The position numbers and the translations under genes were made by a program. From Acetomicrobium hydrogeniformans (GTDB lineage: Bacteria; Synergistota; Synergistia; Synergistales; JAFGMB01), in the NCBI GenBank assembly GCA_016841745.1, contig JAENYO010000001.1, forward strand, positions 56,799-120,798: a stretch of 64,000 nt of DNA. The letters are read 5' to 3'. The notes beneath the pieces were generated by a model. It worked only from the letters and a program-made list of their open reading frames with translations. It made no database searches and had not been told where the DNA came from. Every line of letters begins with the position of its first letter. Within the stretch, counting starts at the first letter, position 1. Positions 4,732-63,480 of the stretch are shown here, piece after piece.

Positions 4732-4836
4732 GTTAACTCTAAACAACTGAAAGTGTCCACTTATCTCAAGTAACGTCTGTCGTAAGTATATCGAATATGC
4801 CACTGGTTGAACAAAGAACTCAAGGGCTAATGCAAC

Positions 4837-5991: not shown

Positions 5992-6027
5992 CCCTATTCC
6001 TCCCCGATATCCTGAAAAATGGTTAAA

Positions 6028-39349: not shown

Positions 39350-40711
39350 TTAAATCTTCTTGAGTGCTTCTCTGGTAATGTCCATACCCCTGGCAAGATC
39401 TTCAAGGGGTACATTCAGGGCAGGTCTGTAACGTATTGATAGAGTCCCACAGGGTAAAATAAGCATTTTCTGAGCATGAAGAAGCTTCAGAAGTTTATTG
39501 CGGGTTTCAGTATCAGGAAGATCGTAGGCGCACATGAGTCCCTTTCCCCTTACATTCTGCAGGATCGGAAATTCTTTCTGCAGTTCAAGAAGTCCATTGT
39601 AAAGGGCAGGTCCAGCAGTATTTGCTACATAATCAAGAATATTTTCATCCCTGTATATCTCGAGGAATCTTTGGGATCTTACCATATCTACAACACTTCC
39701 GCCCCATGTAGAATTGATCCGACTGGAAGTAACCCAGCAGTTTCCCTCGACTTCATCTATCCTTGGCCCTGCAACTATGCCACATATCTGTGCTTTCTTA
39801 CCAAAAGCAAAGATATCGGGTTTAACTCCATAATGCTCCCAGGCCCACATCTTACCAGTAATACCCATCCCACACTGAACCTCATCAAATATCAGAAGTA
39901 TTTCATTTTCGTCACAGATCTTACGCAGACTCTGGAAGAATTCTTTCCTGAATTGATTATCTCCGCCTTCTCCCTGAATCGTTTCAATGATCAGGGCACA
40001 TATATCATCAGGATTATTCTCTATAGCCTGTTGGATCTGTTTAAGCGATTGGAGCTCAGCCCACTTTACCATATTGAGATTATCTTCTAAAGGCCAGTAT
40101 ATTCTGGGATTCAAAACCTTGATCCAGTCATTGAACTTGGCAAAATACTGATGCTTGTTTGGATCATGGGTATTAGTCAAGCTAAGAGTATATCCGCTTC
40201 TTCCATGAAAAGCTTCATTGAAGTAAATCACCTTTGTTCCCTTTTTCCCCCGAATTGCATCTCCTTTATTGACCTTACCGGCTGCTAGAAGTCTTCTTAC
40301 TTTCCAATCCATGGCTACTTTAAGAGCATTTTCTACTGCTAATGTTCCATAATCGATCAGGAAAAGATGCTTAAACCCTTCTGGCATGGCAACTTTACCA
40401 AAAGTGTGAACAAATTCTGCCATTTCCTGAGTATATATATCCGAATTAGCTACTTTGTTTATGGCAGAACGATATATTTTTTCTTTGAATTCTGCATTGT
40501 CGACCTTGGGATGATTCATACCAAAGGGTGCTGAAGCAAAAAAAGTATAGAAGTCAAGCCATGCATCGCCTGTAGAAGCATCGACGATATGGCTTCCTCT
40601 GGATTTTTCCATATCGATAACTATGTCAAAACCATCTCTTAGCATCCATTCAGCTATTGTTGAAAAAACTTCTTTGGGTGGAATTGAAAAGGAAGAACAA
40701 TGTTCAGTCAT
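39350..40711 (-). CDS. lat: L-lysine 6-aminotransferase
   Basis: 453-residue class-III aminotransferase. Moves the epsilon amino group of lysine to 2-oxoglutarate, giving glutamate and 2-aminoadipate 6-semialdehyde. The sequence FNEAFHGRSGYTLSLTNTHDPNKHQYF is the LAT hallmark; LLIFDEVQCGMG (D276) and FAFGKKAQICG (PLP-lysine K305) form the cofactor site. ATG start with AAGGAGGCAGATAGAAA. In actinomycetes LAT is tied to beta-lactam precursors or stress; here, in a fermenter, lysine breakdown is the likelier role (inference). No semialdehyde dehydrogenase is adjacent; the AOR at 53844 could in principle oxidise an aldehyde product. Confidence 0.92.
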   Translation of the reverse strand: MTEHCSSFSIPPKEVFSTIAEWMLRDGFDIVIDMEKSRGSHIVDASTGDAWLDFYTFFASAPFGMNHPKVDNAEFKEKIYRSAINKVANSDIYTQEMAEFVHTFGKVAMPEGFKHLFLIDYGTLAVENALKVAMDWKVRRLLAAGKVNKGDAIRGKKGTKVIYFNEAFHGRSGYTLSLTNTHDPNKHQYFAKFNDWIKVLNPRIYWPLEDNLNMVKWAELQSLKQIQQAIENNPDDICALIIETIQGEGGDNQFRKEFFQSLRKICDENEILLIFDEVQCGMGITGKMWAWEHYGVKPDIFAFGKKAQICGIVAGPRIDEVEGNCWVTSSRINSTWGGSVVDMVRSQRFLEIYRDENILDYVANTAGPALYNGLLELQKEFPILQNVRGKGLMCAYDLPDTETRNKLLKLLHAQKMLILPCGTLSIRYRPALNVPLEDLARGMDITREALKKI

Positions 40712-41369: not shown

Positions 41370-42902
41370 TCAGGATTCTTCTTTATTATCCTCAATGTCT
41401 TCTTTCCAGAAAACACCTATTCCCAAATAAGTAATGGTAATTGCAACGATTGGATTCAGCCAGTTAAGAATGGCATAAGGAGCATAGGCGAAGGGATGAA
41501 CACCAAGGACACTGGACTGATAAGCTCCGCATGTATTCCAGGGAACCAGAGCCGATGTAAGGGTTCCAGCATCTTCAAGGCTTCGTGAAAGCATCCTCGG
41601 AGCAAGTCCTTTCTTACCCTTGTATTCAAAATTCTCAAAACCTGTCTTGAAAAGCCTTCCCGGCATAACAATTGCAAGATACTGATCGCCGAGAAACAGG
41701 TTAGAAAATATGCAGGAGGCTATAACAGCTGTTACTAGTCCACCTACTGTAGTAACCATTTTAAGGATTTTCTCAAGGAGAACTTCAAGGAATCCGCAGG
41801 TTTCCATGATACCGCCAAGAGCCAGAGCCAGAAGGATCAGGGAGATTGTCCACATCATTCCATCCAGCCCACCTCTAGTTAGAAGGTCTGCCAATAGGCT
41901 CCCGACTTCATGGACCATATCAAGACTGATGTTATCCCCTACGAGGGCCACGCCTTTCAGTGCTTCAGTTACTGCCTCCATACTTCCCGCTTCTGATACG
42001 GCATTTGCGATACTTGTCTCATAGCCATAATGTAGGGCACCCATGACATCGGCAAGGCCAACCCCCTGGAAAAGAGACATTACCGAACCGGCAAGCATTC
42101 CAATTATAAGCCCGGGTATGGCGGGGACCTTTGCAGTGGCCATTATGATAACAAGAACCGGGGGAATGAAACCAAGAAGGCTTACATGAAATTCAGCTTG
42201 CATTACCTGCTGGATAAGGGATATCTTTGAAGCATCAAGTGCGCCACCGGCATATTTCATGCCCATAAATCCTGCTATTACAGCAACGATGATATAAGTA
42301 GGACCTGTTGTCCAGAGCATGGCCCGTATATGGTCAAAGAGATCATTACCAGCAACTGCAGGAGCAAGATTTGTAGTGTCGGAAAGAGGAGACATCTTAT
42401 CTCCGAAATAGGCTCCCGAAATAATAAATCCGGCAGTTATATGAGCAGGTATTCCAAGTCCGGCTGCAATACCCATCATTGCAATACCGACTGTACCTGT
42501 TGTAGTCCAGGAACTTCCGGTCGCAAGAGAAACTATAGAACATACCAGAAGTGTTGCTAAAAGGAAAAATCCCGGAGAGAGCAGGTCCAGACCATAGTAG
42601 ATAAGTGAGGGGACTACCCCGCTCTGTACCCAGGCACCGATCATAGAACCTACTATGGTGAGGATCAGAATAGCCTGCATGGCAATCATAATTCCATTGA
42701 TCATTCCGTTTTCAATCTTTTTCCATGGATATTTCAAAACAAAGATACCCATGAAGGCAGTAAACACAGCACAAAGGAAAATCGGTACATGAGCATCAAG
42801 ACCTAATTTTAGAACACTCCCGCTTATAACAACAGCAATAACTACCAGAACCAACGATGCTTCGATAAAACTCGGTTTTCTACCCACTTTTTCTTCTGCC
42901 AT
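41370..42902 (-). CDS. nhaC: NhaC-family Na+/H+ antiporter
   Basis: 510 residues from the ATG at 42902 (GAGGAGGAAGGGAA upstream); the extra 30 residues in the track are unlikely. About 11-12 membrane helices. NhaC signatures: SLATGSSWTTTGTVGIAMMGIAAGLGIPAHITAGFIISGAYFGDKMSPLSDTTNLA and VPWNTCGAYQSSVLGV. The family includes Na+/H+ and malate-Na+/lactate antiporters (MleN), so an organic-acid role next to the citrate-lyase operon is possible. Its own transcript, flanked by two hairpins. Confidence 0.93.
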   Translation of the reverse strand: MAEEKVGRKPSFIEASLVLVVIAVVISGSVLKLGLDAHVPIFLCAVFTAFMGIFVLKYPWKKIENGMINGIMIAMQAILILTIVGSMIGAWVQSGVVPSLIYYGLDLLSPGFFLLATLLVCSIVSLATGSSWTTTGTVGIAMMGIAAGLGIPAHITAGFIISGAYFGDKMSPLSDTTNLAPAVAGNDLFDHIRAMLWTTGPTYIIVAVIAGFMGMKYAGGALDASKISLIQQVMQAEFHVSLLGFIPPVLVIIMATAKVPAIPGLIIGMLAGSVMSLFQGVGLADVMGALHYGYETSIANAVSEAGSMEAVTEALKGVALVGDNISLDMVHEVGSLLADLLTRGGLDGMMWTISLILLALALGGIMETCGFLEVLLEKILKMVTTVGGLVTAVIASCIFSNLFLGDQYLAIVMPGRLFKTGFENFEYKGKKGLAPRMLSRSLEDAGTLTSALVPWNTCGAYQSSVLGVHPFAYAPYAILNWLNPIVAITITYLGIGVFWKEDIEDNKEES

Positions 42903-43183
42903 TTCCCTTCCTCCTCTAGAATGATATTCTCTCCAACCTGGAACTACCCCCCAAACCACACAACTTCGCGATAAGGTTAATCTAACCCTCATCCAGTTTT
43001 GATTATATTCTATTTCTCGATTTCATGTCTACAATCTTTAGGTTATTCTGACTAGACAGAGAACACACTCTCTCACTCACTATCATTCAGAATATAGTAA
43101 TCGCCCAATGCTATCTCGCAAATATGTTTTCTCGTTATCTTGACCAATACCGGAAAAAGAATATGAAGAGAAAATATAATCTT
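42903..43183. other. Intergenic leader of nhaC
   Basis: 281 bases without a gene. A plausible minus-strand promoter is TTGCGA-N16-TACTAT at 43094-43121, which would leave a leader of about 185 bases. I see no recognisable riboswitch. Confidence 0.4.
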
Positions 43184-43231
43184 ATAAAAAACTCAGGGCA
43201 AGGGGTATACCCCTTGCCCTGAGTTTTTTAT
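43184..43231 (-). terminator. 48-base perfect palindromic terminator of the citrate-lyase/aconitase operon
   Basis: TAAAAAACTCAGGGCAAGGGG and its exact complement joined at TATA; starts two bases past the dehydrogenase stop. T runs on both sides make it bidirectional in principle. Confidence 0.85.
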
Positions 43232-43233: not shown

Positions 43234-44358
43234 TTAAAGTCTTTTAACGATTTCCCTTGCCATATCGAGGGTCGAAGATGCCTTTGTTTCCCAATCTGCA
43301 ACACCTTTATCTCTCAAAAGATCATAGGTAAGGACCTTCCCCTCCTTAAGAACATCAAACATAGCCTTTTCCATAGTTTCGGTATAGGTTTCAAGGCCCA
43401 GGTAATTCAAAAGCATTCCGGCAGCATTAAGCATTGCAACAGGATTAAGCTTGTACTGGCCTGCATACTTTGGTGCTGAACCATGACAGGGTTCCATAAG
43501 AGCATAGTTTTCACCAATATTCCCACTGGCAGTGACTCCCATACCCCCAACAAGCTGGGAAGCTTCATCAGAGACTATATCTCCAAACATATTTGTCGTA
43601 ACGACGACTTCATAATTCTGAGGATTCTTTATAAGCCACATACATGTAGCATCCACATTCTCCATATTCCATTCAACCTCAGGATAATCCCTGCAGACTT
43701 CCTTTGCCACATCGAGGAATAAACCACCTGTAGCTCGGATTACATTTGGTTTCTCCACAACTGTCACTTTATTTCTTCCTGTGTTTTTAGCATACTCAAA
43801 GGCCGCTCTTATAATTCTCTCACAACCTTCATATGAATAAATCCTTAGAGAGGCTGCAAGTTCTTTTTTCCCCCTGTATCTTTCAAGATTGGGATGTATG
43901 GATAGAAGTTCTTCGGGAAATGGCCGCCATTCAACAGCTGAATAAAGACCTTCTGTATTTTCCCTGAACATTACCATGTCAATATCATCACGGTAAGAAG
44001 GAACCCCGGGCATGGATTTTGCAGGTCTTAGATTAATATAAAGATCAAATATCTGTCTCATCTGAAGAATAGCGGATTTAAAACCCTTCACACCAGGTTT
44101 TGATGTTATGGCTGCCATCAATGCGGCATCTGTATTCTGCAAAACCTCTTTGGTCTCATCTGGAACGGTATTCCCGTATTTTTCCCACATGCACCAACCT
44201 GCATCTGCCCGAACCCAGTCGATAGGAGGATTCAATGCTTCCATAACCTCCATACACGCTTCCATTACATCAAAACCAGAATCATCCCCAGGAATATAAG
44301 CAACCTTATATCTTTCTTTTTTGCTCGAAACCTTAAGAACATCTCTATCTGTAGCCAT
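43234..44358 (-). CDS. Isocitrate/homoisocitrate dehydrogenase-family decarboxylating dehydrogenase
   Basis: 374 residues. Beta-decarboxylating dehydrogenase: N-terminal VAYIPGDDSGFDVMEA, substrate helix FRENTEGLYSAVEW, catalytic Lys/Asp segments (VEKPNVIRATGGLFLD; TTNMFGDIVSDEASQLVGGMG) and cofactor loop EPCHGSAPKYAGQYKLNPVAMLNAAGMLL. RENTEGLY and HGSAPKYAG fit NAD-isocitrate or homoisocitrate dehydrogenase better than isopropylmalate dehydrogenase (RELTGG). Encoded directly after an aconitase-type pair, so isocitrate to 2-oxoglutarate is the first guess; the direction in vivo cannot be read from sequence. ATG with GGAGGGGACGTTA. Last gene of the operon. Confidence 0.85.
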   Translation of the reverse strand: MATDRDVLKVSSKKERYKVAYIPGDDSGFDVMEACMEVMEALNPPIDWVRADAGWCMWEKYGNTVPDETKEVLQNTDAALMAAITSKPGVKGFKSAILQMRQIFDLYINLRPAKSMPGVPSYRDDIDMVMFRENTEGLYSAVEWRPFPEELLSIHPNLERYRGKKELAASLRIYSYEGCERIIRAAFEYAKNTGRNKVTVVEKPNVIRATGGLFLDVAKEVCRDYPEVEWNMENVDATCMWLIKNPQNYEVVVTTNMFGDIVSDEASQLVGGMGVTASGNIGENYALMEPCHGSAPKYAGQYKLNPVAMLNAAGMLLNYLGLETYTETMEKAMFDVLKEGKVLTYDLLRDKGVADWETKASSTLDMAREIVKRL

Positions 44359-44436
44359 TAACGTCCCCTCCTTAGTTCCCTTATTTTAAAAACTAGTAAC
44401 ATTTTTGTGAGTTACCTTCAACCTACCTGGATTTGC

Positions 44437-44934
44437 TCATTCCAATCCCAGACTTTTTCTTATATGTTCAACAAGTCCACCATCCTGAAGTATTCCCCTG
44501 ACATATTCTGGAATGGGTGCAAAAGCAAATTCCTTGCCCTGATCTGTCCTGATGAGTCCATTCTCAAAATCTATTTCGATTTGCTCACCAGCCTCAATGG
44601 AATCTACCGCTGCAGGCGACTGGATAACAGGTAATCCCTGATTAATGGCATTACGGTAGAATATCCGCGCAAAACTTTTGGCTACAACTGCCCCGACCTT
44701 AAGAGATGTAAGACATGTCGCTGCCTGTTCTCTGGATGAACCGCATCCCCAGTTCTTCCCTGCTACAATTACATCTCCAGGCTGGGCCTTTCGTGCAAAT
44801 TCTGGATCAAGGTCCTCCAGAGCATATTTGCCCATCTCTGCTGGATCTAGAACAGTATATGTGTATTTTCCCGGGAAAATAACGTCAGTATTCACATCAT
44901 CTCCATATTTCCATACCTTTCCCTTGACTTTCAT
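44437..44934 (-). CDS. Aconitase/isopropylmalate-isomerase family small subunit (pair 2)
   Basis: 165 residues: KVWKYGDDVNTDVIFPGKYTYT, VAGKNWGCGSSREQAATCLTSLKVGAVVAKSFARIFYRNAINQGLPVI is the swivelling-domain signature with the GCGSSREQA active-site loop. The residues after YTYT/N in this loop set substrate range (citrate, homocitrate, isopropylmalate, mesaconate) but I cannot assign it by eye. One-base overlap with its large subunit (ATG inside the stop). Confidence 0.88.
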   Translation of the reverse strand: MKVKGKVWKYGDDVNTDVIFPGKYTYTVLDPAEMGKYALEDLDPEFARKAQPGDVIVAGKNWGCGSSREQAATCLTSLKVGAVVAKSFARIFYRNAINQGLPVIQSPAAVDSIEAGEQIEIDFENGLIRTDQGKEFAFAPIPEYVRGILQDGGLVEHIRKSLGLE

Positions 44935-46193
44935 TACACAAGCACCTCCCTGGGATCAGCGATTTCACCCTTCAAGGCAGAAGCGGCAACTGTTGCTGGA
45001 CTGGCAAGGTAGATAAAGCTCTCCTTATTTCCCATTCTTCCTTTGAAATTCCTGTTCGCTGTGGAAATGCAGGTTTCGCCTGGAGCAAGGATCCCTTCAT
45101 GATTGCCCATGCATGGACCACAACCAGGGTTAGCCAGTACACATCCTGCATCAAGAAGAATATCAATTACTCCCTTTGACATTGCTTTTCTGTAAATTTC
45201 CCAGGAAGCAGGTATTACAATAGTTCTAACAGCCACTCTTTTTCCCGAAAGTACCTTTGCAGCTTCTTCCAGGTCCTGAAGTCGACCGTTGGTACATGTC
45301 CCTATAAAAGCCTGGTCGATGGATGTACCCTTAACTTCTGTAACAGGAGAATAGTTATCCACGGTATGAGGTTTTGCTACTCCTGGTTCTATATTTGCAA
45401 GATCATATTCAAGTGCTTTTTCATAGCAGGCATCTTCATCTGCCCATATTGACTCCCATTTGTCAGATTTTGCCTTGTCTTTGATAAAGTTCAGAACCTT
45501 ATCATCAGGCGGGCAAACCGCATTTTTCGCTCCCATTTCTATGCCAAGATTACAGAGGGTCATTCTGGATCCAAGGCTCATATCTGCTATAGCCTTACCA
45601 TGAAATTCAACAGACATATAGTCAGCTCCATCAGATTGGATATCACCCATGATCCTGAGGATCAGATCCTTTGCACTGACTCCCCTGCTAAAGGTTCCAT
45701 TCACACTGATCTTCATCGAATCCGGTACTTTAAACCAGATCTTCCCAGTAGCCCAGGTGGCGGCCATTTCGGTTCGGCCTATACCGGTTGAGAAGGCACC
45801 AAAAGCTCCGTAAGTACAGGTGTGACTATCACTTCCAACCATGACAAGTCCTGGCAGAGCATAGCCTTTTTCACACATAACCTGGTGACAGACTCCACCA
45901 TTACTCATGATATCGTAGAAATGTTCGATTCCCTGATCTTTAACAAATTCCCGAATAACCTTGTGATTCTGTGCATGTTTATCAGTCGGAGCCGGAATAG
46001 CGTGGTCAAGTATAAATACCAGTTTGCTACTGTCCCATACTTTGTTGACTCCAATATCCCTGAAGATCTTGGAAATGGGTGCAGCATTGTCATGACTCAT
46101 ACAGAAATGTGGTTCAACCGTTACTATCTGACCAGCAGAAACTTCATTCCCAGTTGCCTTACCAAGAACTTTTTCAGCAAAGGTCTTACCCAT
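44934..46193 (-). CDS. Aconitase/isopropylmalate-isomerase family large subunit (pair 2)
   Basis: 419 residues, [4Fe-4S] hydro-lyase. Canonical motifs: GSDSHTCTYGAFGAFSTGIGRTEMAATWATGKIWFKVP, AFIGTCTNGRLQDLEEAAK, and NPGCGPCMGNHEGILAPGETCISTANRNFKGRMG, with Cys ligands in GTCTNG and CGPC. The short two-subunit type includes LeuCD, archaeal homoaconitase and mesaconase-type enzymes. Together with the dehydrogenase that follows it most simply acts as an aconitase. Eleven bases after small subunit 1. Confidence 0.88.
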   Translation of the reverse strand: MGKTFAEKVLGKATGNEVSAGQIVTVEPHFCMSHDNAAPISKIFRDIGVNKVWDSSKLVFILDHAIPAPTDKHAQNHKVIREFVKDQGIEHFYDIMSNGGVCHQVMCEKGYALPGLVMVGSDSHTCTYGAFGAFSTGIGRTEMAATWATGKIWFKVPDSMKISVNGTFSRGVSAKDLILRIMGDIQSDGADYMSVEFHGKAIADMSLGSRMTLCNLGIEMGAKNAVCPPDDKVLNFIKDKAKSDKWESIWADEDACYEKALEYDLANIEPGVAKPHTVDNYSPVTEVKGTSIDQAFIGTCTNGRLQDLEEAAKVLSGKRVAVRTIVIPASWEIYRKAMSKGVIDILLDAGCVLANPGCGPCMGNHEGILAPGETCISTANRNFKGRMGNKESFIYLASPATVAASALKGEIADPREVLV

Positions 46194-46204
46194 AATCTAC
46201 CACC

Positions 46205-46738
46205 CTATTCCTTCCCGGCATGGGCCTTTATGTATTGAAGAAGGCCTCCATGGGCCATTATTTCTTTTTCCAGGTCTGTAACGGCATCGCCATGTATCTT
46301 CTCTCCTGATTTCAGATTTGTGATCTCGCCTGTATCAAGGTTTACTTCGATCTCATCTCCATCCTTGAATTTAGAAGAGATTCCTGGAGCTACAAGTACC
46401 GGATAGCCATTGTTTACAGCATTCCTGTAATAGATTCTGGAGAATGATTCAGCAAGAACCACAGGAATACCTCCCTCTTTAAGACAGTAAACAGCATGTT
46501 CTCTGCTTGAGCCACATCCGAAATTTGTTCCCGCAACTACAACATCACCATTCTGTACTTCTCTGGCAAAGTTTTCTTTTCCAGGGTAGTATTCAAAGGC
46601 ATACTGAGGCATTTCAGCAGGATCTGTAACTGCCAGATATTTATTATGATAGATCAGATCAGTATCAACATCATCGCCGAAAACCCAGGCTCTTCCTTTT
46701 ATGATAGAACTTCCCATTACTTCCCCTCCTTTAACCAA
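46205..46738 (-). CDS. Aconitase/isopropylmalate-isomerase family small subunit (pair 1)
   Basis: 177 residues (possibly 170 from the ATG at 46717, which follows GGAGGGGAAGTA). RAWVFGDDVDTDLIYHNKYLAVTDPAEM, VAGTNFGCGSSREHAVYCLKEGGIPVVLAESFSRIYYRNAVNNGYPVL. The loop after TDLI reads YHNKYLAV against FPGKYTYT in pair 2, so the two small subunits should differ in substrate. Overlaps its large subunit by eight bases. Confidence 0.88.
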   Translation of the reverse strand: MVKGGEVMGSSIIKGRAWVFGDDVDTDLIYHNKYLAVTDPAEMPQYAFEYYPGKENFAREVQNGDVVVAGTNFGCGSSREHAVYCLKEGGIPVVLAESFSRIYYRNAVNNGYPVLVAPGISSKFKDGDEIEVNLDTGEITNLKSGEKIHGDAVTDLEKEIMAHGGLLQYIKAHAGKE

Positions 46739-48011
46739 GAATATCTCTAGGATCTGTGATCATTCCTCTTACCGCTGATGCCATTGCTGTCATTGGACTG
46801 GCAAGAAAAGTGCTGCTTCCTTTTCCAACTTTTCCGAGGAAGTTCCTGTTGGTGGTCGACATACCCACATCATCAGAAGGAAGGGCTCCGTAGTGCTGGG
46901 CAGTGCACAGGCTACATGTCGGATTTGTGAACACGATCCCCGCATCAATGAATTTTTCTATATAACCGGCCTTGGCACACTGGGACATAACTTCTCTTGT
47001 AGCAGGGGTAATTATGCACCTGGTCATTGGGTTTATTTTGAAATCAGCAGCTTTTAACACATTAAACGCTGCAGTTATATCCTCAAACCTGCCATTGGTA
47101 CAGGATCCTATGTGTACCTGGTCAAGCTTTGTTCCTGCAACTTCACTAACCTTTTTGACATTATCCGGGGCATGGGGGGCTGAAACGAGAGGTTCAAGGT
47201 CAGATACATCAAAATGAAGGTCTTCGCAATATATTGCATCCTTATCAGCTTTCATAAATTCAACGCTTTCCCTGACATCTTCGCCACCTCTCTCAACAAG
47301 CCATTGGAGAACTTCGCCATTAGGCTGGATGAGACCGATTTTACCACTCATTTCAGTGATCATGGAACAAAGAGTTATCCTCTCTGCCAGTGAAGATCTT
47401 TCAATGACTGGTCCATAGAATTCTGCAGCTTTGTACAGAAGTCCATCGGCTTTAAGGTTTCCAACAAGAAATGTAAGGAAATCTCTCATACATACTCCGG
47501 TTTGAAATTCTCCGGTCACAGTAATTCTGTCCGTTTCAGGAACTCTAAACCATAACTTGCCCAGTATCCACGATGCAACAATATCCGTATTGCCTACACC
47601 GGTAGCGAAAATACCAGCCCCTCCAAGCAGATTCATATGGCTATCGGTACCTAGGACGACATGTCCAGGTTTTACCACTCCATTTTCAAGCATGACATGC
47701 TGGCCGATTCCCCAGTTGATATCAAAGACTTTCTCTATACCCTGCTGTTTTGCAAATTCACGAATTATCTTCTGATTGTTTGATACTTTTTCGGTGTGAG
47801 ATGGAGCCTGCAGATCGAATGTAAAAGCAATCTTATCAGGATCCCAGACTTTACCCCGACCCTCTGTAACTTCTTCAAACTGGAGACAACAGTTAGGACC
47901 GGCAAAGTCTCTTGCAGAAGATATATCTATATCGCACCATACCCTGTCTCCGGGTTTAACATCCTTTCCGGACGCTCTGCTTATTATTTTCTCTATCGTT
48001 GTTTTTCCCAT
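46731..48011 (-). CDS. Aconitase/isopropylmalate-isomerase family large subunit (pair 1, divergent)
   Basis: 426 residues. Same fold as pair 2, with HIGSCTNGRFEDITAAF and the TNRNFLGKVG segment, but key motifs differ: GTDSHMNLLGGAGIFATGVGNTD in place of DSHTCTYG, and NPTCSLCTAQHYGAL in place of NPGCGPCMGNHEG. The three cluster cysteines are kept. This divergence suggests a substrate other than citrate, for example citramalate/mesaconate or 2,3-dimethylmalate-type acids (inference). ATG with AGGAGGGTTTTAA. Confidence 0.85.
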   Translation of the reverse strand: MGKTTIEKIISRASGKDVKPGDRVWCDIDISSARDFAGPNCCLQFEEVTEGRGKVWDPDKIAFTFDLQAPSHTEKVSNNQKIIREFAKQQGIEKVFDINWGIGQHVMLENGVVKPGHVVLGTDSHMNLLGGAGIFATGVGNTDIVASWILGKLWFRVPETDRITVTGEFQTGVCMRDFLTFLVGNLKADGLLYKAAEFYGPVIERSSLAERITLCSMITEMSGKIGLIQPNGEVLQWLVERGGEDVRESVEFMKADKDAIYCEDLHFDVSDLEPLVSAPHAPDNVKKVSEVAGTKLDQVHIGSCTNGRFEDITAAFNVLKAADFKINPMTRCIITPATREVMSQCAKAGYIEKFIDAGIVFTNPTCSLCTAQHYGALPSDDVGMSTTNRNFLGKVGKGSSTFLASPMTAMASAVRGMITDPRDILG

Positions 48012-48068
48012 TTAAAACCCTCCTGAGTCTTTCCTGAAAATTTTTGGAAATAATTCATTCGCCAAGTG

Positions 48069-48623
48069 CTAAAGAAGTCCCAGGTGAGACTTGATACTCT
48101 CGAAATTTATAAAATCTACATGATGCACAACCACAGCCTCAGGACTGCGATGTCTGCCGTTACCTTCCCCGGCATGTGTAGCTATTATGTGACATATATC
48201 ACTGGAAAGGCCATTTCTGGCAGCAAGCACCGCACCTGAAAAGGGGTGTCGCAGATCCTTACCATATTGGGATTTGACATAGCCGCCGTCCTTGAACTCC
48301 ATTTCAACAAGCTTGCCCACATCATGAAGAATTGCTCCTGCTATCAGCACATCCCTGTCCAGGGTAAAATCTCCCTGGTTACGGTATATAGGGTTATATA
48401 CATCTCCTATATGCCTGCACATCTGGACTATAGACCTTGTATGGGCCAATAGCGAAGCGGGACAATCCGGTATAAGGAGAGTGAAGGGCATTTTATCCAT
48501 ATCTTCGACTTCCCAGCCCCCGGATCTAAGTCCATCTGCTATTGTCAAAACCACTTTCTCCTGCAGAGTCTTGTCAACAATCCAATCAATTTCAGGTATC
48601 GTTTCCCTAATCTTTTCGTTCAT
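48069..48623 (-). CDS. HD-domain phosphohydrolase
   Basis: 184 residues. Metal-binding HD motif: H61 (LLAHTRSIV), H100-D101 (AGAILHDVGKLVEM), then HPFSGAVLAA, IIATHAGEGNG and VVVHHVDFIN, giving a full H...HD...D set. Such proteins hydrolyse nucleotides or phosphoesters; no substrate can be assigned. It sits in the middle of the citrate-lyase operon between citG and the first aconitase pair, with GGAGG before its ATG, so it is cotranscribed. A link to the phosphoribosyl-dephospho-CoA prosthetic group chemistry is speculative. Confidence 0.8.
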   Translation of the reverse strand: MNEKIRETIPEIDWIVDKTLQEKVVLTIADGLRSGGWEVEDMDKMPFTLLIPDCPASLLAHTRSIVQMCRHIGDVYNPIYRNQGDFTLDRDVLIAGAILHDVGKLVEMEFKDGGYVKSQYGKDLRHPFSGAVLAARNGLSSDICHIIATHAGEGNGRHRSPEAVVVHHVDFINFESIKSHLGLL

Positions 48624-48689
48624 TCATAAGACCTCCATAAGAATAGATTATATTCACGCCTTCAGGCGCTCTGGTAAGAAAACTCCCAC

Positions 48690-49574
48690 CTATACAATTC
48701 CTGCCTTTTCAAGAAAATGAATGGTAGCGGTAGCAGCAAGAAGATCTGCGGAGCCTCCGGGATTGATGTTTTCTGATATGAACAGCTCATCCATTTGTAT
48801 TATGAATTCTCTTCCTTTCGCAGTTCCCATACCACCCAACTCCAGGGCCTCCGACGCCATAGGCTGAACCCTTTCCTTCAGCGTTGAATAATTGGAACGG
48901 GATATGACATTTGTATCCGCAGAAACAGACATGATCCGAAGCAGAGTATTAACCATTGAATCATTCAATGAAAGCCCCCTGGAAAGACCAGCTCTCATTT
49001 CCGGCAGGCCATGGTCTACAACAGCTGGCAGGCCATCCTCCACCTCACCTCTTATACCCCTGACCCCATATTTCAGATATAACTCTTCTCCTTTCGTTAA
49101 ATTTCTTTTCGGTATTTTTTTAGTTAAAACAAAGAGTTCCCTCTCGCAAATACCTGAAGCAATGGCTCTTATCTGTTCCGAAAGGACATTTGCACTCAAC
49201 GCTATTCCTTTCCTTATTATTTTCCCTGCAGCGGCACAGATAACACCCATTATGAAGATAAGACCTTTCTGGGTATTAACTCCATACGTAGCACGGAACA
49301 TCCTTTTTTCAGTAGCCATTCCTTCCTGGCGAAGGCTGTGAAGAAGTTGCTCATTTGGCGATTCAGACTTGAGACCCAGCATTGAAAAACGATAAAAATC
49401 CTGGCATATAGCAGCTGAGCTAATGCTGAAAAGGAAAAAATCCATATCGCGGTTAGCTCCATTATTTGTAAGGTCAACCAGTCCAGGTTTTGGCGTACAT
49501 GCCATTTCGAGTAACATACCACGAATAGCTTTTTCACTGATCTCCCAGGATATCTGAGAATAGGATCTATCCAA
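48690..49574 (-). CDS. citG: Triphosphoribosyl-dephospho-CoA synthase (CitG family)
   Basis: 294 residues. Makes the prosthetic-group precursor of citrate-lyase-type acyl carrier proteins. Family motifs: EMACTPKPGLVDLTNNGANRDMDFFLFSISSAA, GVNTQKGLIFIMGVICAAAG, and KYGVRGIRGEVEDGLPAVVDHGLP. Starts at a TTG following GGAGGGAAACCTTT. No citX (transfer of the group) or citC (acetyl ligase) is visible in the window. Confidence 0.88.
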   Translation of the reverse strand: MDRSYSQISWEISEKAIRGMLLEMACTPKPGLVDLTNNGANRDMDFFLFSISSAAICQDFYRFSMLGLKSESPNEQLLHSLRQEGMATEKRMFRATYGVNTQKGLIFIMGVICAAAGKIIRKGIALSANVLSEQIRAIASGICERELFVLTKKIPKRNLTKGEELYLKYGVRGIRGEVEDGLPAVVDHGLPEMRAGLSRGLSLNDSMVNTLLRIMSVSADTNVISRSNYSTLKERVQPMASEALELGGMGTAKGREFIIQMDELFISENINPGGSADLLAATATIHFLEKAGIV

Positions 49575-49619
49575 AAAGGTTTCCCTCCATAACTATGGCT
49601 GCCTTTATGAAAAATCTCA

Positions 49620-51161
49620 TTAACAGGTCTTGACTTCCCGTATCACATCAACAACCGTACCATCTCGATACTCAACAACCCCAATGACCTTATCTGTGAA
49701 CTCAGGATCTTCTGGCTTTCCAGATATTCTGTACGCTTCATTTTTCAGATCATGAATATTGATCACGGGTAATCCAGCTTTTTTTAGGGTTATCTCGAGC
49801 TCAGCACGTAGTGGATTAACTGCTATTCCTCTCTCGGTAACGACAACATCAATAGTTTCTCCGGGACTTGTGACTGTTAGAACATCGTCGACTACCATAG
49901 GAAGTCTGCCTCGAAGCAGTGGAGTTGTAATAATGGTCAGATTCGCACCGGCAGCAGTGTCCATGTGCCCACCAATACCATGAAGAAGGACTCCATCAGA
50001 TTCAGTATTGACGTTGACATTAAAATTGGTATCTACCTGGGTGGCTCCCAGGATAACTGCATCAAGTTGATTGACGGCACATCCCTTATTATGGGGGTTA
50101 GCATAAAATGAAGCGCTCATTTCGACATGATTAGGGTTTTCCCGCAATGAGCGAACAGCTTCCATATCAAAGGATTGGACATCCAACAATGTCTCAAAAA
50201 GTCCTTCCTGGAGCATCTGAACAAAAAAAGCGGTAATACCTCCCGAACCAAAGCTCCCCCTGATATTCCTTTCTTTCATTGTTTCTCTTATATAATCGGC
50301 TACAGCCAGAGAAATACCACCTGCTCCCGTCTGAAGGGAAAAACCGTCTTCTATGAATCCGGAAGCCTCTATTACCTTTGCGGCATTCTCTGCGATTAGA
50401 AGCCGAAGGGGATCTCGGGTTACCTTCAGGGTACCTGAAACAATACCCGAAGGATCACCTATCTGATCAATCTTTACAACATAGTCAACATAGTTTTGTG
50501 GAATGGATATGGGGAAAAGAGGATATTGAACCAGATGATCAGTTATTGCTACAACCTTATCTGCAAACATCGCATCTGCGACACAATATCCAAGAGATCC
50601 ACATGCCGACTGCCCATCAGATCCATTGAGGTTCCCGTAACGATCGGCTGAAGGAGCAGCAATGAAAGCGACATCAATAGAAAGGTCTCCTGCTTCAATT
50701 GCTCTAGCACGTCCTCCATGGGAACGTAAAAGGACAGGAACATCAAATCCGCCATGGGAAGCAAGTTTCCCTACAGGACCATTTACACTTCCCTGAATGG
50801 CTTTGACCACACCACTTTCTATATGTTTTATGATGGATTTATGAATAGGGAAAAGTGCAGTTGGAGCCAGCGTCATGTCCCTGTAACCCATTTCGGCTAT
50901 AAGATCCAGAACCATGGCAACAACAAAATCTCCATTTCTAAGATGGTGATGGAAGGATATGGTCATCCCATCCTTGAGGCCTGTGGCAAGGATGGCATCT
51001 CTCAGTGAAGGGAGAAGTTTTTCCGTATCCCTGGTGACATATGGAACCAGGGGAGATTTCATTTTGCCTTCAGGAAATCCTGCAAAGACCCCTTTAAAAG
51101 GTTTTAAGGGACCTATCCCCTCAATAAATTCAGGAATCACTCTTCCTGCTTCATTTAACAT
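49620..51161 (-). CDS. citF: Citrate lyase-type alpha subunit (acetyl-ACP:hydroxyacid ACP transferase)
   Basis: 513 residues, CoA-transferase-like. FEGIGPLKPFKGVFAG near the start, ISFHHHLRNGDFV, GGHMDTAAGANLTIITTPLLRGRLPMVVDDVLTVTSPGETIDVVVTERGIAVNP near the C-terminus are CitF hallmarks. Swaps the acetyl group on the carrier protein for the substrate hydroxyacid. Citramalate lyase uses homologous subunits, so the substrate may be citrate or citramalate. AAGGAGG before the ATG; 16 bases after citE. Confidence 0.92.
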   Translation of the reverse strand: MLNEAGRVIPEFIEGIGPLKPFKGVFAGFPEGKMKSPLVPYVTRDTEKLLPSLRDAILATGLKDGMTISFHHHLRNGDFVVAMVLDLIAEMGYRDMTLAPTALFPIHKSIIKHIESGVVKAIQGSVNGPVGKLASHGGFDVPVLLRSHGGRARAIEAGDLSIDVAFIAAPSADRYGNLNGSDGQSACGSLGYCVADAMFADKVVAITDHLVQYPLFPISIPQNYVDYVVKIDQIGDPSGIVSGTLKVTRDPLRLLIAENAAKVIEASGFIEDGFSLQTGAGGISLAVADYIRETMKERNIRGSFGSGGITAFFVQMLQEGLFETLLDVQSFDMEAVRSLRENPNHVEMSASFYANPHNKGCAVNQLDAVILGATQVDTNFNVNVNTESDGVLLHGIGGHMDTAAGANLTIITTPLLRGRLPMVVDDVLTVTSPGETIDVVVTERGIAVNPLRAELEITLKKAGLPVINIHDLKNEAYRISGKPEDPEFTDKVIGVVEYRDGTVVDVIREVKTC

Positions 51162-51177
51162 AATGACAGACCTCCTT

Positions 51178-52059
51178 TTAAGCTAGACCCATAGCTTCAG
51201 CAAAGGCCAGAACTCTTCTGGCCTTTGCAACAACAGGAGCATCAATCATTCTGCCATCAAGGGCAACAACTCCTGATTTCTTTTTTTCTGCTTCTTCCAG
51301 TGCCTGGACGATTCGTCTGGCCTTGACGATTTCTTTTTCTGAAGGAGTAAAAACCTTATGAACTGGCTTGATCTGTCGAGGATGGATGATAGACTTGCCA
51401 TCAAATCCCAATTGTTTGATAAGACTTGTTTCAGCTAAAAGGCCTTCTTCATCATTTACGTTTCCAAAGACTGTATCAAGTGCATCGATATGAGCTATCC
51501 TTGCAGCAAGTAGGATCTTCATTCTTATATCAAGAAGTTCCAGACCTTCTCTTGTCCTCTGTGCTGCTATATCTGCAGTATAATCTTCACCACCAAAATT
51601 TATCGCAGAAATCCTGCTGTCTGCACATGCTATTTCCACCGCATTATAAGAACCAAGTGCAGATTCAATAAGGGGCATTATCTTTATTTTCCCCCTGTCC
51701 AAACCCTTTTCAGTTTCCAGTTGATCAAGCACCTCACTCACAGTTATAACATCCTGAGCATGTTCGCATTTAGGCAGTCTTATGGCATCGAGCCGTGGAC
51801 AAACAACATCTTTCAAATCATCCATACCGTAGGGTGTAGAAAGAGAGTTTATTCTTACCACCACTTCGGCCCCAAGAAAATCTACATGATTAAGCGCATT
51901 CCTGACCAATATACGGGCTGAATCCTTTTCGCTTATGGATACAGCGTCTTCAAGATCCAGAACGACTGAATCGGCCCCAAATATTCCAGAATTCAACAAC
52001 ATTGAAGGATCGTTACCTGGAATATAGAGAGCTGTTCGCCGCAATTGTTTTAAAGACAT
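51178..52059 (-). CDS. citE: Citrate lyase-type beta subunit (citryl-ACP/citramalyl-ACP lyase)
   Basis: 293 residues, HpcH/CitE TIM barrel: LRRTALYIPGNDPSMLLNSGIFGADSVVLDLEDAVSISEKDSAR, VVRINSLSTPYGMDDL, IMPLIESALGSYNAVEIA, INFGGEDYTADIAAQRT, FDGKSIIHPRQIKPVHKVF. Carries out the carbon-carbon cleavage giving acetyl-ACP plus oxaloacetate (citrate) or pyruvate (citramalate). Overlaps citD by ten bases. Confidence 0.92.
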   Translation of the reverse strand: MSLKQLRRTALYIPGNDPSMLLNSGIFGADSVVLDLEDAVSISEKDSARILVRNALNHVDFLGAEVVVRINSLSTPYGMDDLKDVVCPRLDAIRLPKCEHAQDVITVSEVLDQLETEKGLDRGKIKIMPLIESALGSYNAVEIACADSRISAINFGGEDYTADIAAQRTREGLELLDIRMKILLAARIAHIDALDTVFGNVNDEEGLLAETSLIKQLGFDGKSIIHPRQIKPVHKVFTPSEKEIVKARRIVQALEEAEKKKSGVVALDGRMIDAPVVAKARRVLAFAEAMGLA

Positions 52060-52352
52060 CTTCCAACCTCCCCAATTGTAGAAGATAGAGCCCTTCTTGC
52101 AGCAGTTTCCACACGAGCACTTATAGCGCAGTCAAGAGCACCCCTATCCTGAGCCTTTACATAGGCATCATGGATACCGAGATTAACAAGGGTATCTTTG
52201 ATAGTAAGGATAATCTGCTTACCGAAGGGCACTATAGATGGGCTATCAAGGTCAATGCTTATCCCTTTTTCTTGAACGGAAAGGTCAATAAAGACCAGTA
52301 TATCCCCAGACTCCAGTGTACCTGCCTGACCTTTGCTCTGATCTGTTTTCAA
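52050..52352 (-). CDS. citD: Citrate lyase-type acyl carrier protein (gamma subunit)
   Basis: 100 residues. AGTLESGDILVFIDL contains Ser15, the site that carries phosphoribosyl-dephospho-CoA in CitD (Ser14 in Klebsiella). TTG start, AAAGGGG upstream. Follows the IclR gene by 40 bases. Confidence 0.9.
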   Translation of the reverse strand: MKTDQSKGQAGTLESGDILVFIDLSVQEKGISIDLDSPSIVPFGKQIILTIKDTLVNLGIHDAYVKAQDRGALDCAISARVETAARRALSSTIGEVGRCL

Positions 52353-52392
52353 CTATATCAATCCCCTTTGTTTGACAATTTATCTTGATAGT

Positions 52393-53184
52393 CTATTGAA
52401 TTTCCACTGTTTCCAGAGAATATCCAAGGGCCTTGGATATAGAATTGGCAGCGCCTATTACCAGTGGAATGAAACGTCTTATATTCACATCTGTAAACCT
52501 GGAAACAGGTCCAGTTACACTCAGAGCTGCTATAACACTTCCGGAAAAGTCCCTTACTGGTGCTGCTATGGAAACAGCCCCCAGGTAAGTTTCCTCAAAG
52601 CTTATTGAATAGCCCTGCTTCCTTACCTTGGATAGTTCTGCCAGAAGGTCCTCCCTGTCTGTAATAGTGTTGGGACCCATTGTTATGAGTTTCTTATCCT
52701 CAAGTAGACCTATGAGGGAATCATCCGGGAGATAAGCCATTAGGACCTTGCCAGGAGCACCAGAATGGATCGGGAGCGATTTCCCCAGCTCCACGGCCTG
52801 TCTGATCTCATGTGGACTTTCAATTTTTTTAACACTCATCCTTCTACCATTATAGAGAACATTAAGATTAATGGTTTCCTTTGTTTCAAGGGCAAGGTTC
52901 TGCATAAAGGGATGCGCATAATGTCTTATTTCAAGCTGTTCTTCTACAAGATAACCAAGCTGAAATAGTTTAAGTCCAAGACGGTATTTCATGGTATCAG
53001 GATTCTTTACCACAATACTCCGCTGTTCCAGAGTAAGAAGAATCCTGTGGACCCTGCTTTTGTTAAGACCAAGTTTTCTGCTTATCTCACTTATTCCGAG
53101 GTTCTGTTCTTCTCTGGAAAAACAGTCAAGGACATCAATGGAAGTGAGAAGAGATTGTATGAGATAATTTGAATTGTTGTTCAT
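52393..53184 (-). CDS. IclR-family transcriptional regulator
   Basis: 263 residues from the ATG at 53184 (AAGGAGCTTTCTA in front); the track adds nine unlikely residues. N-terminal winged helix-turn-helix (LGISEISRKLGLNKSRVHRILLTLEQRSIV) and C-terminal GAF-like effector domain (RQAVELGKSLPIHSGAPGKVLMAYL, GYSISFEETYLGAVSIAAPVRDFSGSVIAALSVTGPVSRF). First gene of the citrate-lyase operon, so it probably controls this operon, and possibly the divergent ferredoxin-AOR pair, in response to a small organic acid. Confidence 0.92.
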   Translation of the reverse strand: MNNNSNYLIQSLLTSIDVLDCFSREEQNLGISEISRKLGLNKSRVHRILLTLEQRSIVVKNPDTMKYRLGLKLFQLGYLVEEQLEIRHYAHPFMQNLALETKETINLNVLYNGRRMSVKKIESPHEIRQAVELGKSLPIHSGAPGKVLMAYLPDDSLIGLLEDKKLITMGPNTITDREDLLAELSKVRKQGYSISFEETYLGAVSIAAPVRDFSGSVIAALSVTGPVSRFTDVNIRRFIPLVIGAANSISKALGYSLETVEIQ

Positions 53185-53235
53185 TAGAAAGCTCCTTGTC
53201 TTGTTTGGCAATACACTGTATTATTATATGAGATT

Positions 53236-53426: not shown

Positions 53427-53819
53427 TTGAAGTGGCTGAAGACATATCCGGAGAGATGTATTGGTTGTGAACAATGTATGGAAACATGCTCAGAGTTATG
53501 GTTTAGAGAAAAATCAAAACTTCTGTCAAGAATCAGAATATCAGCGAACGAAGTAGGTTTTTCACTTAATGCGTGCAACCAATGTGGCAAGTGCATCGAA
53601 ATATGTCCCGTAGGGGCCTTGGCAAGAGATGCAAATGGCATAGTTCAGCTTGATAAAGACAAATGTGTAGGCTGTATGATGTGTGTCGCTTTTTGCCCGA
53701 CATCAAGCATTTTCTTTAGCTCCACAAAGGGCGTTGAACCTTTCAAATGCATTGCCTGTGGAGCCTGCACAAAAGGATGTCCTACGGAAGCATTGGAGAT
53801 AGTGGAAGAATACAATTGA
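53427..53819 (+). CDS. Polyferredoxin, four [4Fe-4S] clusters, partner of the aldehyde oxidoreductase
   Basis: 130 residues with four full cysteine sets: CIGCEQCMETC, CNQCGKCIEICP, CVGCMMCVAFCP and CIACGACTKGCP, 16 cysteines in all. Electron-transfer subunit. TTG start preceded by GGGGGG. The AOR gene follows 24 bases later. A separate small FeS subunit with several clusters is known for WOR5-type tungsten oxidoreductases of Pyrococcus, which is the closest architectural match. Confidence 0.9.
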   Translation: MKWLKTYPERCIGCEQCMETCSELWFREKSKLLSRIRISANEVGFSLNACNQCGKCIEICPVGALARDANGIVQLDKDKCVGCMMCVAFCPTSSIFFSSTKGVEPFKCIACGACTKGCPTEALEIVEEYN

Positions 53820-53843: not shown

Positions 53844-56018
53844 ATGGCAGGCATTGAAATGAAAGTTCTTGCAGAATGGAAATATGAGAAATCCATACCG
53901 TTCAGAGGATATACCGGTAAAACTCTTTATGTAAACGTAGAAAACCAGGAATGCATTGAAAAAGAAGTAACTGAAGAGATGAAGGAAAGATTTACGGGGG
54001 GAAGAGGTTTTGGACTAAAACTTCTATGGGATGCTGTAAAAGACAATACAAAGTGGGATGATCCAGAGAATGAGATCATCATTTCAGGAGGCCCCTTATG
54101 TGGGGTAACGCAATATCCGGGATTGGGTAAGTTCTATGCCGTTTTTATTTCGCCTCTTTCCGGCCAGACCTATGACAGTAACGCAGGAGGGCATTTCGGT
54201 CCTCTGCTAAAATTTGCAGGGTGGGATGCTCTGGAAATACAGGGAAAATCAAGTAGTGATGTTGTTATATTCATCGATGGTGATAACGGCAAAGTTCAGT
54301 TCTTAGAGTCAGACCTCAAAGATTTAAATAGCTACACAATAACAGAATCCCTTCATGACTATTTTTCAGAAACCGAAGACGATAAACGTTCAGTTTCAGT
54401 TGTTTCTACAGGACAGGCTGCTGAACATACTTACTGGGGTTGTCTTAACTCCAGTTTTTATGATCTAAAAAGAAAGACACCCCGCTTGAAACAGGCAGGA
54501 AGGGGTGGCGGTGGAACTATCCTCCGGAATAAAAAGATCGTTGCACTGGTAGTTAGAAATCGAGATTGGTCCAACATCAAACAAGGAATCAAAGATTTTG
54601 GCATATTGCAGGAAGTTGGACTAAAACTACATAAGGAGATTCATGATCTCGATGCCAAACAGGCGAGAATGCGTACTGTTGGAACAGCTCATCTTAATGA
54701 GATCATGAACGATTATCACCTTCTTCCTACCCATAATTTTAAATTCGGTCAACATAAAGACATTGCGAATATTCATTCGAATGTTTATGAGGGCCTGTTC
54801 ACCCAAGGAGTACCAGATGGATGCTGGTATGGGTGTTCAATGGCATGTAGCAAGGGAGTAGACAATTTCGAAATTAAGACTGGCCCCTGCAAAGGACAAA
54901 TTGTAACAGTGGATGGACCGGAGTATGAAACAAGCTCTAGCTTGGGACCAAATATCGGAATAATGAACCCTGCATGGACCATTGAAGCTAATTTTTATGC
55001 TGACCATTATGGTTTTGATACTATTGGTCTCGGTACAGGATTAGCTTTCGTCTGTGAATGCTTTGAAAAAGGTTTCATCAACCAGGAGATCACCAATGGA
55101 CTTGATCTCAACTTCGGAAATATGGATAACATAATGAAACTTATCCATCGAATGGCCGAGGGAAAAGACACTTTTGCGAATGAAGTCAGTAAAGGTATCA
55201 GGCAGATGAAAAAGGTTTTTGAAGAAAAATATGGTGCTCCTGCCGAAAACCTGCGTGATATAGGAATGGAAGGTCAGGGAATTGAAGTTTCCGAGTATGT
55301 CTGCAAAGAATCTATCGCACAGTGGGGCGGTTTCTTCCTGACCCTCAAGGGCCCACAACACGATGAAGCCTGGCTTATTTTTATGGACAGAGTGAACAAG
55401 CAATTACCAACCTTCGAAGATAAGGCTGAAGCTCTCCATTATTTCCCTCTTTTCAGAACCTGGTTCTCCCTGATTGGAGGCTGCAAGCTTCCGTGGAATG
55501 ACGTCGAACCTGCAGATAATATGACCAAGTACCCACCTCAGGAAGCTGCAAAGGTTCCTGAACATGTTCAGAATTACGTCGATATCTTCAATGCCGTTAC
55601 CGGGAGAAGTATAACTAAGGAAGATCTTCTACTCATGTCTGAAAAGGTATATAACTTCCAGCATCTTTTCCAGATCAGACTTGGAAAGGGCACAAGAGAT
55701 TTCCACAACATACCTTATAGAGCAATGGGCCCCGTATATGCAGATGAATGGGAAGCCCGATCCGAATATTACGATAACGAACTTCGAGAGGCTGGGATTG
55801 AACCAGAAAGACTTCCTGTTGAAGAGAAGATAAGTAAATTGAGGGTTATCAGGGAACAACAGTGGATAACACTTGTTGATGCAGTATATAACAAAAGAGG
55901 ATGGGATAGAAACGGTATACCGACTCTTGAAAAACTAAGAGAAATCGACATGGAACTGCCTGAACTGGTAAAGATCGTCAAAGAAAAAGCAAAGCCTGAA
56001 GACAGTTTCACTAATTAG
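53844..56018 (+). CDS. Aldehyde ferredoxin oxidoreductase family (tungsto/molybdo-pterin)
   Basis: 724 residues, longer than classical AOR (about 605). N-terminal AOR_N domain with GYTGKTLYVNVE, TGGRGFGLKLLWD, SGGPLCGVTQYPGLGKF and DSNAGGHFGPLLKFAGWDAL; RGGGGTILRNKKIVAL; cluster cysteines C327, C331 and C335 in GCWYGCSMACSKG and C547 in GGCKLPWND. Oxidises an aldehyde to an acid and reduces ferredoxin, using a bis-pterin W or Mo cofactor. ATG with GGGGGG upstream. Divergent from the IclR-cit operon. Substrate unknown; aldehydes from amino-acid degradation are the usual case. Confidence 0.94.
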   Translation: MAGIEMKVLAEWKYEKSIPFRGYTGKTLYVNVENQECIEKEVTEEMKERFTGGRGFGLKLLWDAVKDNTKWDDPENEIIISGGPLCGVTQYPGLGKFYAVFISPLSGQTYDSNAGGHFGPLLKFAGWDALEIQGKSSSDVVIFIDGDNGKVQFLESDLKDLNSYTITESLHDYFSETEDDKRSVSVVSTGQAAEHTYWGCLNSSFYDLKRKTPRLKQAGRGGGGTILRNKKIVALVVRNRDWSNIKQGIKDFGILQEVGLKLHKEIHDLDAKQARMRTVGTAHLNEIMNDYHLLPTHNFKFGQHKDIANIHSNVYEGLFTQGVPDGCWYGCSMACSKGVDNFEIKTGPCKGQIVTVDGPEYETSSSLGPNIGIMNPAWTIEANFYADHYGFDTIGLGTGLAFVCECFEKGFINQEITNGLDLNFGNMDNIMKLIHRMAEGKDTFANEVSKGIRQMKKVFEEKYGAPAENLRDIGMEGQGIEVSEYVCKESIAQWGGFFLTLKGPQHDEAWLIFMDRVNKQLPTFEDKAEALHYFPLFRTWFSLIGGCKLPWNDVEPADNMTKYPPQEAAKVPEHVQNYVDIFNAVTGRSITKEDLLLMSEKVYNFQHLFQIRLGKGTRDFHNIPYRAMGPVYADEWEARSEYYDNELREAGIEPERLPVEEKISKLRVIREQQWITLVDAVYNKRGWDRNGIPTLEKLREIDMELPELVKIVKEKAKPEDSFTN

Positions 56019-58508: not shown

Positions 58509-58514
58509 TTTCTC

Positions 58515-59618: not shown

Positions 59619-59620
59619 GG

Positions 59621-59962: not shown

Positions 59963-59974
59963 TATGTACGCCTC

Positions 59975-63478: not shown

Positions 63479-63480
63479 AA

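Follow-up and report, generated by a model that had tools for sequence, protein, structure and literature searches.

A 64,000-nucleotide stretch of the genome of Acetomicrobium hydrogeniformans (contig JAENYO010000001.1, positions 56,799 to 120,798; hereafter, the window) carries on its minus strand an eleven-gene operon, iclR-citD-citE-citF-citG-HD-lgB-smB-lgA-smA-DH, which combines genes of a citrate-lyase-like enzyme with two aconitase-type pairs and a dehydrogenase (DH) of the isocitrate/homoisocitrate family. On balance, this operon probably encodes a route of C7 tricarboxylic acids, namely, the first half of the alpha-aminoadipate lysine pathway run in reverse, by which lysine would be fermented via homocitrate. 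The original prediction, made from the letters of the window, had described a single operon with two hydro-lyases, a decarboxylating dehydrogenase and a lyase of the acyl carrier protein (ACP) type that looked like a fermentation route, and this description was borne out, with all eleven genes confirmed and their order conserved. The gene set was correct as far as it went, but the gene of an L-lysine 6-transaminase (LAT) downstream and that of an aldehyde:ferredoxin oxidoreductase divergent from iclR had been missed, and, in place of the two parallel C5 and C6 routes then proposed, a single linear C7 homocitrate route fed by lysine fits better.

Structure of the Operon and Predicted Route

Families were named using NCBIfam profile models with curated bit-score cut-offs, and the names hold at the family level. 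The genes of the operon, all of which lay at the positions originally given for them, are as follows:

43234..44358, minus strand: DH, isocitrate/homoisocitrate-family dehydrogenase; best NCBIfam model AksF2, under its cut-off; GFKSAILQMR in place of S-x-N
44437..44934, minus strand: smA, aconitase-fold small subunit A; TIGR02087, 200.8 bits (cut-off 108.95, passed)
44934..46193, minus strand: lgA, homoaconitase-like large subunit A; PGCGPCMG and NRNFKGRMG motifs in common with the M. jannaschii homoaconitase
46205..46738, minus strand: smB, aconitase-fold small subunit B; TIGR02087, 181 bits (cut-off passed); IYHN motif kept in other phyla
46731..48011, minus strand: lgB, divergent aconitase-fold large subunit B; own clade in at least five phyla; altered active-site motifs
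48069..48623, minus strand: HD-domain (HDIG) protein beside lgA/lgB; TIGR00277, 30.9 bits (cut-off 27.6, passed)
48690..49574, minus strand: CitG-like triphosphoribosyl-dephospho-CoA synthase (prosthetic group of the lyase ACP); TIGR03125, 263 bits, just below 272
49620..51161, minus strand: CitF, lyase alpha subunit (acyl-ACP transferase); TIGR01584, 670 bits (cut-off 501, passed)
51178..52059, minus strand: CitE, lyase beta subunit (C-C cleavage); best match to citE, TIGR01588, 374 bits, below 443
52050..52352, minus strand: CitD, lyase ACP; TIGR01608, 82.7 bits (cut-off 63.5, passed)
52393..53211, minus strand: IclR-family regulator; BhcR/PcaR-type models, below cut-offs; also heads the operon of genome G122

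Adjacent genes of the operon either overlapped by no more than 10 bp or were spaced by 11–78 bp. The iclR open reading frame (ORF) starts with TTG at 53211; the next ATG is the start previously assigned to it, at 53184. Behind DH, at about 43195–43220, a palindrome and T-run form a weak terminator-like element, and a promoter-like site (43031–43002, 11/12 match) was located ahead of the next gene, nhaC. Because of these two signals, nhaC and the LAT gene, which is located 2.5 kb (three ORFs) downstream of the operon, probably form a separate transcription unit.

In the predicted route, for which we infer the substrates and the direction, LAT would convert lysine to 2-aminoadipate 6-semialdehyde, which would be oxidized to 2-aminoadipate by the aldehyde:ferredoxin oxidoreductase or another aldehyde dehydrogenase and then converted to 2-oxoadipate by some transaminase. 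Acting as a homoisocitrate dehydrogenase in the direction of a reductive carboxylase, the DH would form homoisocitrate from 2-oxoadipate, CO2 and NAD(P)H. One aconitase pair would convert homoisocitrate to cis-homoaconitate and the other cis-homoaconitate to homocitrate, which CitDEF, with its carrier matured by CitG, would cleave as a homocitrate lyase to acetate and 2-oxoglutarate; the latter would be converted via succinyl-CoA to propionate or transaminated.

Conservation of the Operon

The DH was used as a query against 188 Synergistota genomes, and its matches fell into two sharply separated groups (identity of at least 59% in 64 genomes and of at most 43% in the rest). The order HD-lgB-smB-lgA-smA-DH was fixed in nearly all of the Synergistota loci read, with citD-citE-citF mostly following and a GntR-type regulator often preceding the module; since this order recurs in nearly all of these loci, the gene arrangement is not due to chance. 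G122, which belongs to another genus (g2) of the window's own family, shared the arrangement of the window, iclR-citDEFG preceding the module. Several loci of family f8 had no citDEF behind DH, CitF being encoded elsewhere in those genomes, and in family f11 the DH was found without aconitase pairs, about 5–7 kb from a 2-oxoacid:ferredoxin oxidoreductase gene. It is quite improbable that the operon is a mixed one, in which one pair and the DH would serve one substrate and the other pair and CitDEF another, as the original prediction had suggested: the deep division of lgA and lgB into separate clades and the f11 genomes, which keep the DH without an adjoining pair, would agree with this explanation, but the order of the module is fixed across the families of the phylum, and lgB is again found near DH in other phyla.

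Outside Synergistota, the module was accompanied by other genes. In one Zixibacteria locus (L192), it was paired with succinyl-CoA-ligase-like genes and a protein matching the citryl-CoA-lyase model, whereas in locus L233 it was paired with a CoA-transferase most similar to the succinate-glutarate type and a protein matching the HMG-CoA-lyase model; genes similar in sequence to the latter set were present in loci L188 and L229. A search for the LysW signature near the DH relatives outside Synergistota found none.

The lgB/smB family was common to Synergistota, Acetothermia/Bipolaricaulota, Zixibacteria, Eisenbacteria and WOR-3, in most cases close to a member of the DH family (L192, L194, L170, L178 and L215), and an HD-domain protein of about 180 aa directly preceded the aconitase genes in several phyla (L176, L192, L227 and L232). 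Nearly the same operon arrangement was observed in contigs titled as metagenome-assembled genomes of Treponema and Bacillota (L157 and L161, the former at the identity of L156), which are probably misbinned.

Predicted Link to Lysine

LAT was detected in 60 of the 64 Synergistota genomes with a DH ortholog versus 21 of the 124 without one (Fisher p = 5e-26), and the four DH genomes lacking LAT were 63–89% complete. At the genus level, 29 genera had both genes, 2 had DH only, 6 had LAT only and 26 had neither (p = 8e-10, relatedness not being otherwise corrected for); part of the association is driven by two large families without DH. Among other phyla, LAT scored above the cut-off in 4 of the 12 DH-bearing genomes and in none of the 14 control genomes. 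No lysine genes were recognized in the neighborhoods of LAT in other genomes.

The full operon together with LAT was found in G173, a genome assigned to T. acidaminovorans. This organism is reported to form acetate and propionate from lysine, as it does from glutamate, and citrate lyase was detected in it, whereas isocitrate dehydrogenase (IDH) and beta-methylaspartase were not (PMC3035242). Thus, the products formed from lysine by T. acidaminovorans are those predicted by the proposed route. The lysine 5,6-aminomutase route was rejected as a candidate: there was no PF09043 match in the own genome of the window (G000), and the nine matches in the phylum cover only part of the model. A second LAT copy, 79% identical to that of the window, is present in G000 (contig C8, 101514–102851).

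Substrate Motif of the Dehydrogenase

In this dehydrogenase superfamily, the substrate is set by residues at the start of helix alpha-4, and IDHs have S-x-N at this site. The corresponding motif of the DH was GFKSAILQMR, with the stretch from G89 to Q99 invariant in twelve diverse orthologs, and the Asn of the isocitrate-binding motif was replaced by Ile. The motif is thus neither that of the genome's own IDH (GFRSINV) nor that of its own LeuB (ERGILLTLR). Known homoisocitrate dehydrogenases likewise have no such Asn: the sequence SAIL of the DH corresponds to SPIV in S. pombe and to GAIR in Thermus (motif GAIRYLR). Most of the DH relatives of other phyla had YSSPIVRLR or close variants, sharing S-P-I-V with the solved S. 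pombe homoisocitrate dehydrogenase 3ty3 (YSSPIVALR). Consequently, the motif speaks against a standard isocitrate pocket and fits homoisocitrate, without proving it. LeuB is not a suitable assignment either, as the DH scored 193 bits against a cut-off of 353.

The DH could instead be an IDH, the pairs aconitases and CitDEF a citrate lyase, interconverting glutamate/2-oxoglutarate with acetate and oxaloacetate. This C6 route, which corresponds to the 2-oxoglutarate/isocitrate/citrate branch of the original prediction, is an unlikely explanation. It agrees with the score of CitF in the citrate lyase model, with the Zixibacteria locus described above, and with the closest solved sequences and folds of the DH, which are NAD-IDHs, followed by the Thermus homoisocitrate dehydrogenase; in a Foldseek comparison of the predicted DH structure (mean pLDDT 77), IDHs and the Thermus homoisocitrate dehydrogenase matched about equally, and the comparison did not discriminate between them. 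In addition, no further IDH turned up in 6 of the 12 DH-bearing genomes of other phyla, which may be incomplete; the other six do have another IDH (S-x-N type or monomeric), which favors the homocitrate route instead. Against it, the genome has a separate aconitase-IDH pair with S-x-N (on contig C8, a 650-aa aconitase beside the IDH), and three relatives (G123, G182 and G020; loci L143, L144 and L153) hold, besides the window-type operon, a separate one in which citDEF is combined with genes of a single-chain aconitase and an S-x-N IDH (RSLNV). The Asn of S-x-N is missing in the DH, a second hydro-lyase would be superfluous, and the association with LAT would be left unexplained.

Aconitase-Type Pairs

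Both large subunits passed the subfamily models of the aconitase/isopropylmalate isomerase large subunit, and both small subunits passed LeuD/DmdB; neither pair reached an equivalog model, with lgA (498 bits) and lgB (354 bits) remaining below the cut-off of the homoaconitase large subunit (550 bits). The motifs PGCGPC[LM]G and NRNFKGRMG of the M. jannaschii homoaconitase were present in lgA and not in lgB. The latter retained the three Fe-S cysteines and had altered motifs, namely, ARDF in place of SHDN or similar, GIGQH/GIGSH in place of GICHQ, DSHMN/DSHLN in place of DSHT, and NRNF..K in place of NRNF..R. The loops of smA and smB fit no known class.

Phylogenetic analysis of 42 large subunits placed lgB in a clade (support 100/100) that includes sequences from at least four other phyla, and lgA in a different clade (99/96); the genome's own LeuC was apart from both, grouping with the sequence OWN_C3a (100/99). 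The phylogenetic check proposed with the original prediction thus came out, for the large subunits, against a grouping of the pairs with LeuCD. Furthermore, leuA, leuB and leuC are located together on another contig of the genome (C14), so that, in agreement with the original prediction, the pairs and the DH are not the biosynthetic LeuCD and LeuB; biosynthetic LeuBCD was rejected on the basis of these loci and the tree. For the same reasons, it is very improbable that the operon performs leucine synthesis in reverse with a 2-isopropylmalate lyase, an explanation in line with the relatedness of the hydro-lyases and the dehydrogenase to LeuBCD that would also leave the link to LAT unexplained.

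In fungi, the activity of homoaconitase is limited to the step from homoaconitate to homoisocitrate; homoaconitate is formed from homocitrate by a separate aconitase, and the Thermus aconitase also carries out this reaction (PMC3556520). The presence of two hydro-lyase sets would accordingly be explained by one dedicated pair for each half of homocitrate isomerization, whereas one pair would be enough if citrate or citramalate were the substrate.

Two more aconitase-type pairs are located on contig C3 of G000 (501–6035, L064) beside a 391-aa enolase-superfamily-like protein, and the genome has six aconitase-family enzymes in all.

Citrate-Lyase-Like Enzyme

CitF is clearly a citrate-lyase alpha subunit; together with CitD, it scored above the cut-off, while the CitE and CitG homologues were below theirs. 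The CitF tree does not separate substrates, so the specificity of the lyase is not readable from CitF. In G137, 2,569 bp of the citD-citE-citF region were identical between the DH operon and a gene cluster with methylaspartate ammonia-lyase, which also holds FMN-reductase-like and molybdenum-hydroxylase-like genes (clusters of this type: L115, L116 and L117). Because identical citDEF occurs in two contexts of this genome, the lyase may accept tertiary alcohols that differ in their third substituent.

These copies, which are identical or near-identical in G127 and G137 and 61% identical in G037, would agree with CitDEF being a citramalate lyase, fed from mesaconate or from 2-oxobutyrate via 3-methylmalate and citraconate, as would the hydrophobic I-L of the DH motif, which resembles L-L of LeuB. 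Such a C5 route is nonetheless rather improbable. Methylaspartate ammonia-lyase had no match in G000, which removes the methylaspartate/mesaconate branch of the original prediction, and it was above the cut-off in only 12 of the 64 DH genomes. LeuCD-type enzymes perform both steps of citramalate isomerization with one pair, and one such pair would therefore suffice; moreover, a C5 route predicts no link to lysine.

In L135 and L137, citDEF was observed together with an aconitase-type pair, a protein like those of the phosphoenolpyruvate mutase/isocitrate lyase family and transporter-like genes; in L137, this further locus is followed by two aldehyde oxidoreductases.

Evidence Against the Proposed Homocitrate Route

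It should be noted that a number of observations weigh against the proposed route. The DH scored below the cut-offs of homoisocitrate dehydrogenases (338 of 540 bits for AksF2, its best model, and 273 of 500 for AksF), the hydrophobic residues of its motif would suit methylmalate as well, and the DH family may be an ordinary IDH in the six genomes of other phyla that yielded no further IDH. Neither small subunit has the Arg of the YLRT loop known from the M. jannaschii homoaconitase (YTYT in smA and YLAV in smB), and, given the citDEF copy in G137, the lyase may also cleave citramalate. LAT occurs without DH in 21 genomes, and in the other loci read around LAT it did not adjoin the operon. Finally, lysine does not support growth of Aminomonas paucivorans (PMC3035310), although G123, a genome attributed to this species, has the operon and LAT, nor was growth on it seen in Cloacibacillus porcorum (PMC3709534). 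The absence of growth lowers confidence without refuting the enzymes, since growth on one substrate requires uptake and favorable energetics.

Comparison with Known Systems and Significance

The predicted intermediates, the two aconitase-family enzymes and an isocitrate-family dehydrogenase with SPIV relatives resemble upper alpha-aminoadipate lysine biosynthesis in fungi and Thermus, from which the operon differs in the reversed direction of the predicted route, in an ACP-dependent lyase in place of homocitrate synthase, and in that both of its hydro-lyases are dedicated two-subunit enzymes. With citrate lyase it shares homologues of CitD, CitE, CitF and CitG, but here their genes are joined by those of two hydro-lyases and a dehydrogenase; the substrate is probably larger than citrate, and neither citC nor citX is present in the operon. 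Methylaspartate fermentation of glutamate has a similar order of an aconitase-type hydratase followed by a CitDEF-type citramalate lyase, but the operon has an extra dehydrogenase and an extra hydro-lyase, and its genome has no methylaspartate ammonia-lyase. The methanogen AksDEF enzymes, which elongate 2-oxoacids for coenzyme B, are similar in the best DH model and in the lgA motifs; elongation, however, involves a condensing synthase in place of a lyase, and the small subunits of the operon are without the YLRT Arg. Known anaerobic lysine fermentation, with lysine 2,3- and 5,6-aminomutases, has the same substrate and yields acetate and butyrate, whereas acetate and propionate are predicted here and lysine 5,6-aminomutase has no match in the genome.

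The component families are known; in the open-access literature searched, no paper on a homocitrate lyase and no description of lysine fermentation by the reversed aminoadipate pathway were found. We tentatively suggest that this may be an undescribed lysine fermentation with the first homocitrate lyase, that lgB-smB may be a new aconitase-like family for one half of the isomerization, and that the hydro-lyase/dehydrogenase module may be found again in other phyla of bacteria and archaea, combined with interchangeable lyases (CitDEF; citryl-CoA-lyase-like with succinyl-CoA-ligase-like; CoA-transferase with HMG-CoA-lyase-like); this is possible, though somewhat doubtful in its entirety. Synergistota ferment amino acids and are widespread in digesters, oil wells and guts. 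The route, if true, would explain the formation of propionate and not butyrate from lysine in at least one member of the phylum; homocitrate would then be an intermediate of catabolism, and its cleavage would represent a new lyase activity. The lgB family thereby receives a testable function, and many genes nearest to IDH or isopropylmalate dehydratase models may mislead metabolic reconstructions of uncultured anaerobes.

Flanking Genes

The following genes of the window flank the operon:

34120..35253, minus strand: 2-oxoacid:ferredoxin oxidoreductase alpha subunit; Pfam POR_N and PFOR_II
39350..40711, minus strand: LAT; TIGR03251, 570.6 bits (cut-off 520.8, passed)
41370..42992, minus strand: NhaC-family antiporter, possibly an amino-acid/ion exchanger; TIGR00931, 439 bits (cut-off 370, passed)
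53427..53819, plus strand: polyferredoxin-like protein, divergent from iclR; ferredoxin models
53844..56018, plus strand: aldehyde:ferredoxin oxidoreductase family, divergent from iclR, putatively oxidizing the semialdehyde to 2-aminoadipate; PRK09849, 99 bits, below the cut-off

In G122, the aldehyde oxidoreductase is kept at the same place (72% identity), and an nhaC gene is likewise located behind DH. The 2-oxoacid:ferredoxin oxidoreductase is a possible next step, from 2-oxoglutarate to succinyl-CoA; family f11 and Krumholzibacteria likewise have a KorA homologue close to DH.

Genes of a three-component sarcosine-oxidase-like FAD dehydrogenase (NAD(P)/FAD subunit, ferredoxin-like and SoxB-like) are located at 57987–61120, perhaps encoding an amino-acid dehydrogenase that feeds the route, and a second set of this kind begins at the window end (61995–63990). 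Similar genes were observed 3–10 kb from DH in Krumholzibacteria and Acetothermia (L182, L194 and L214).

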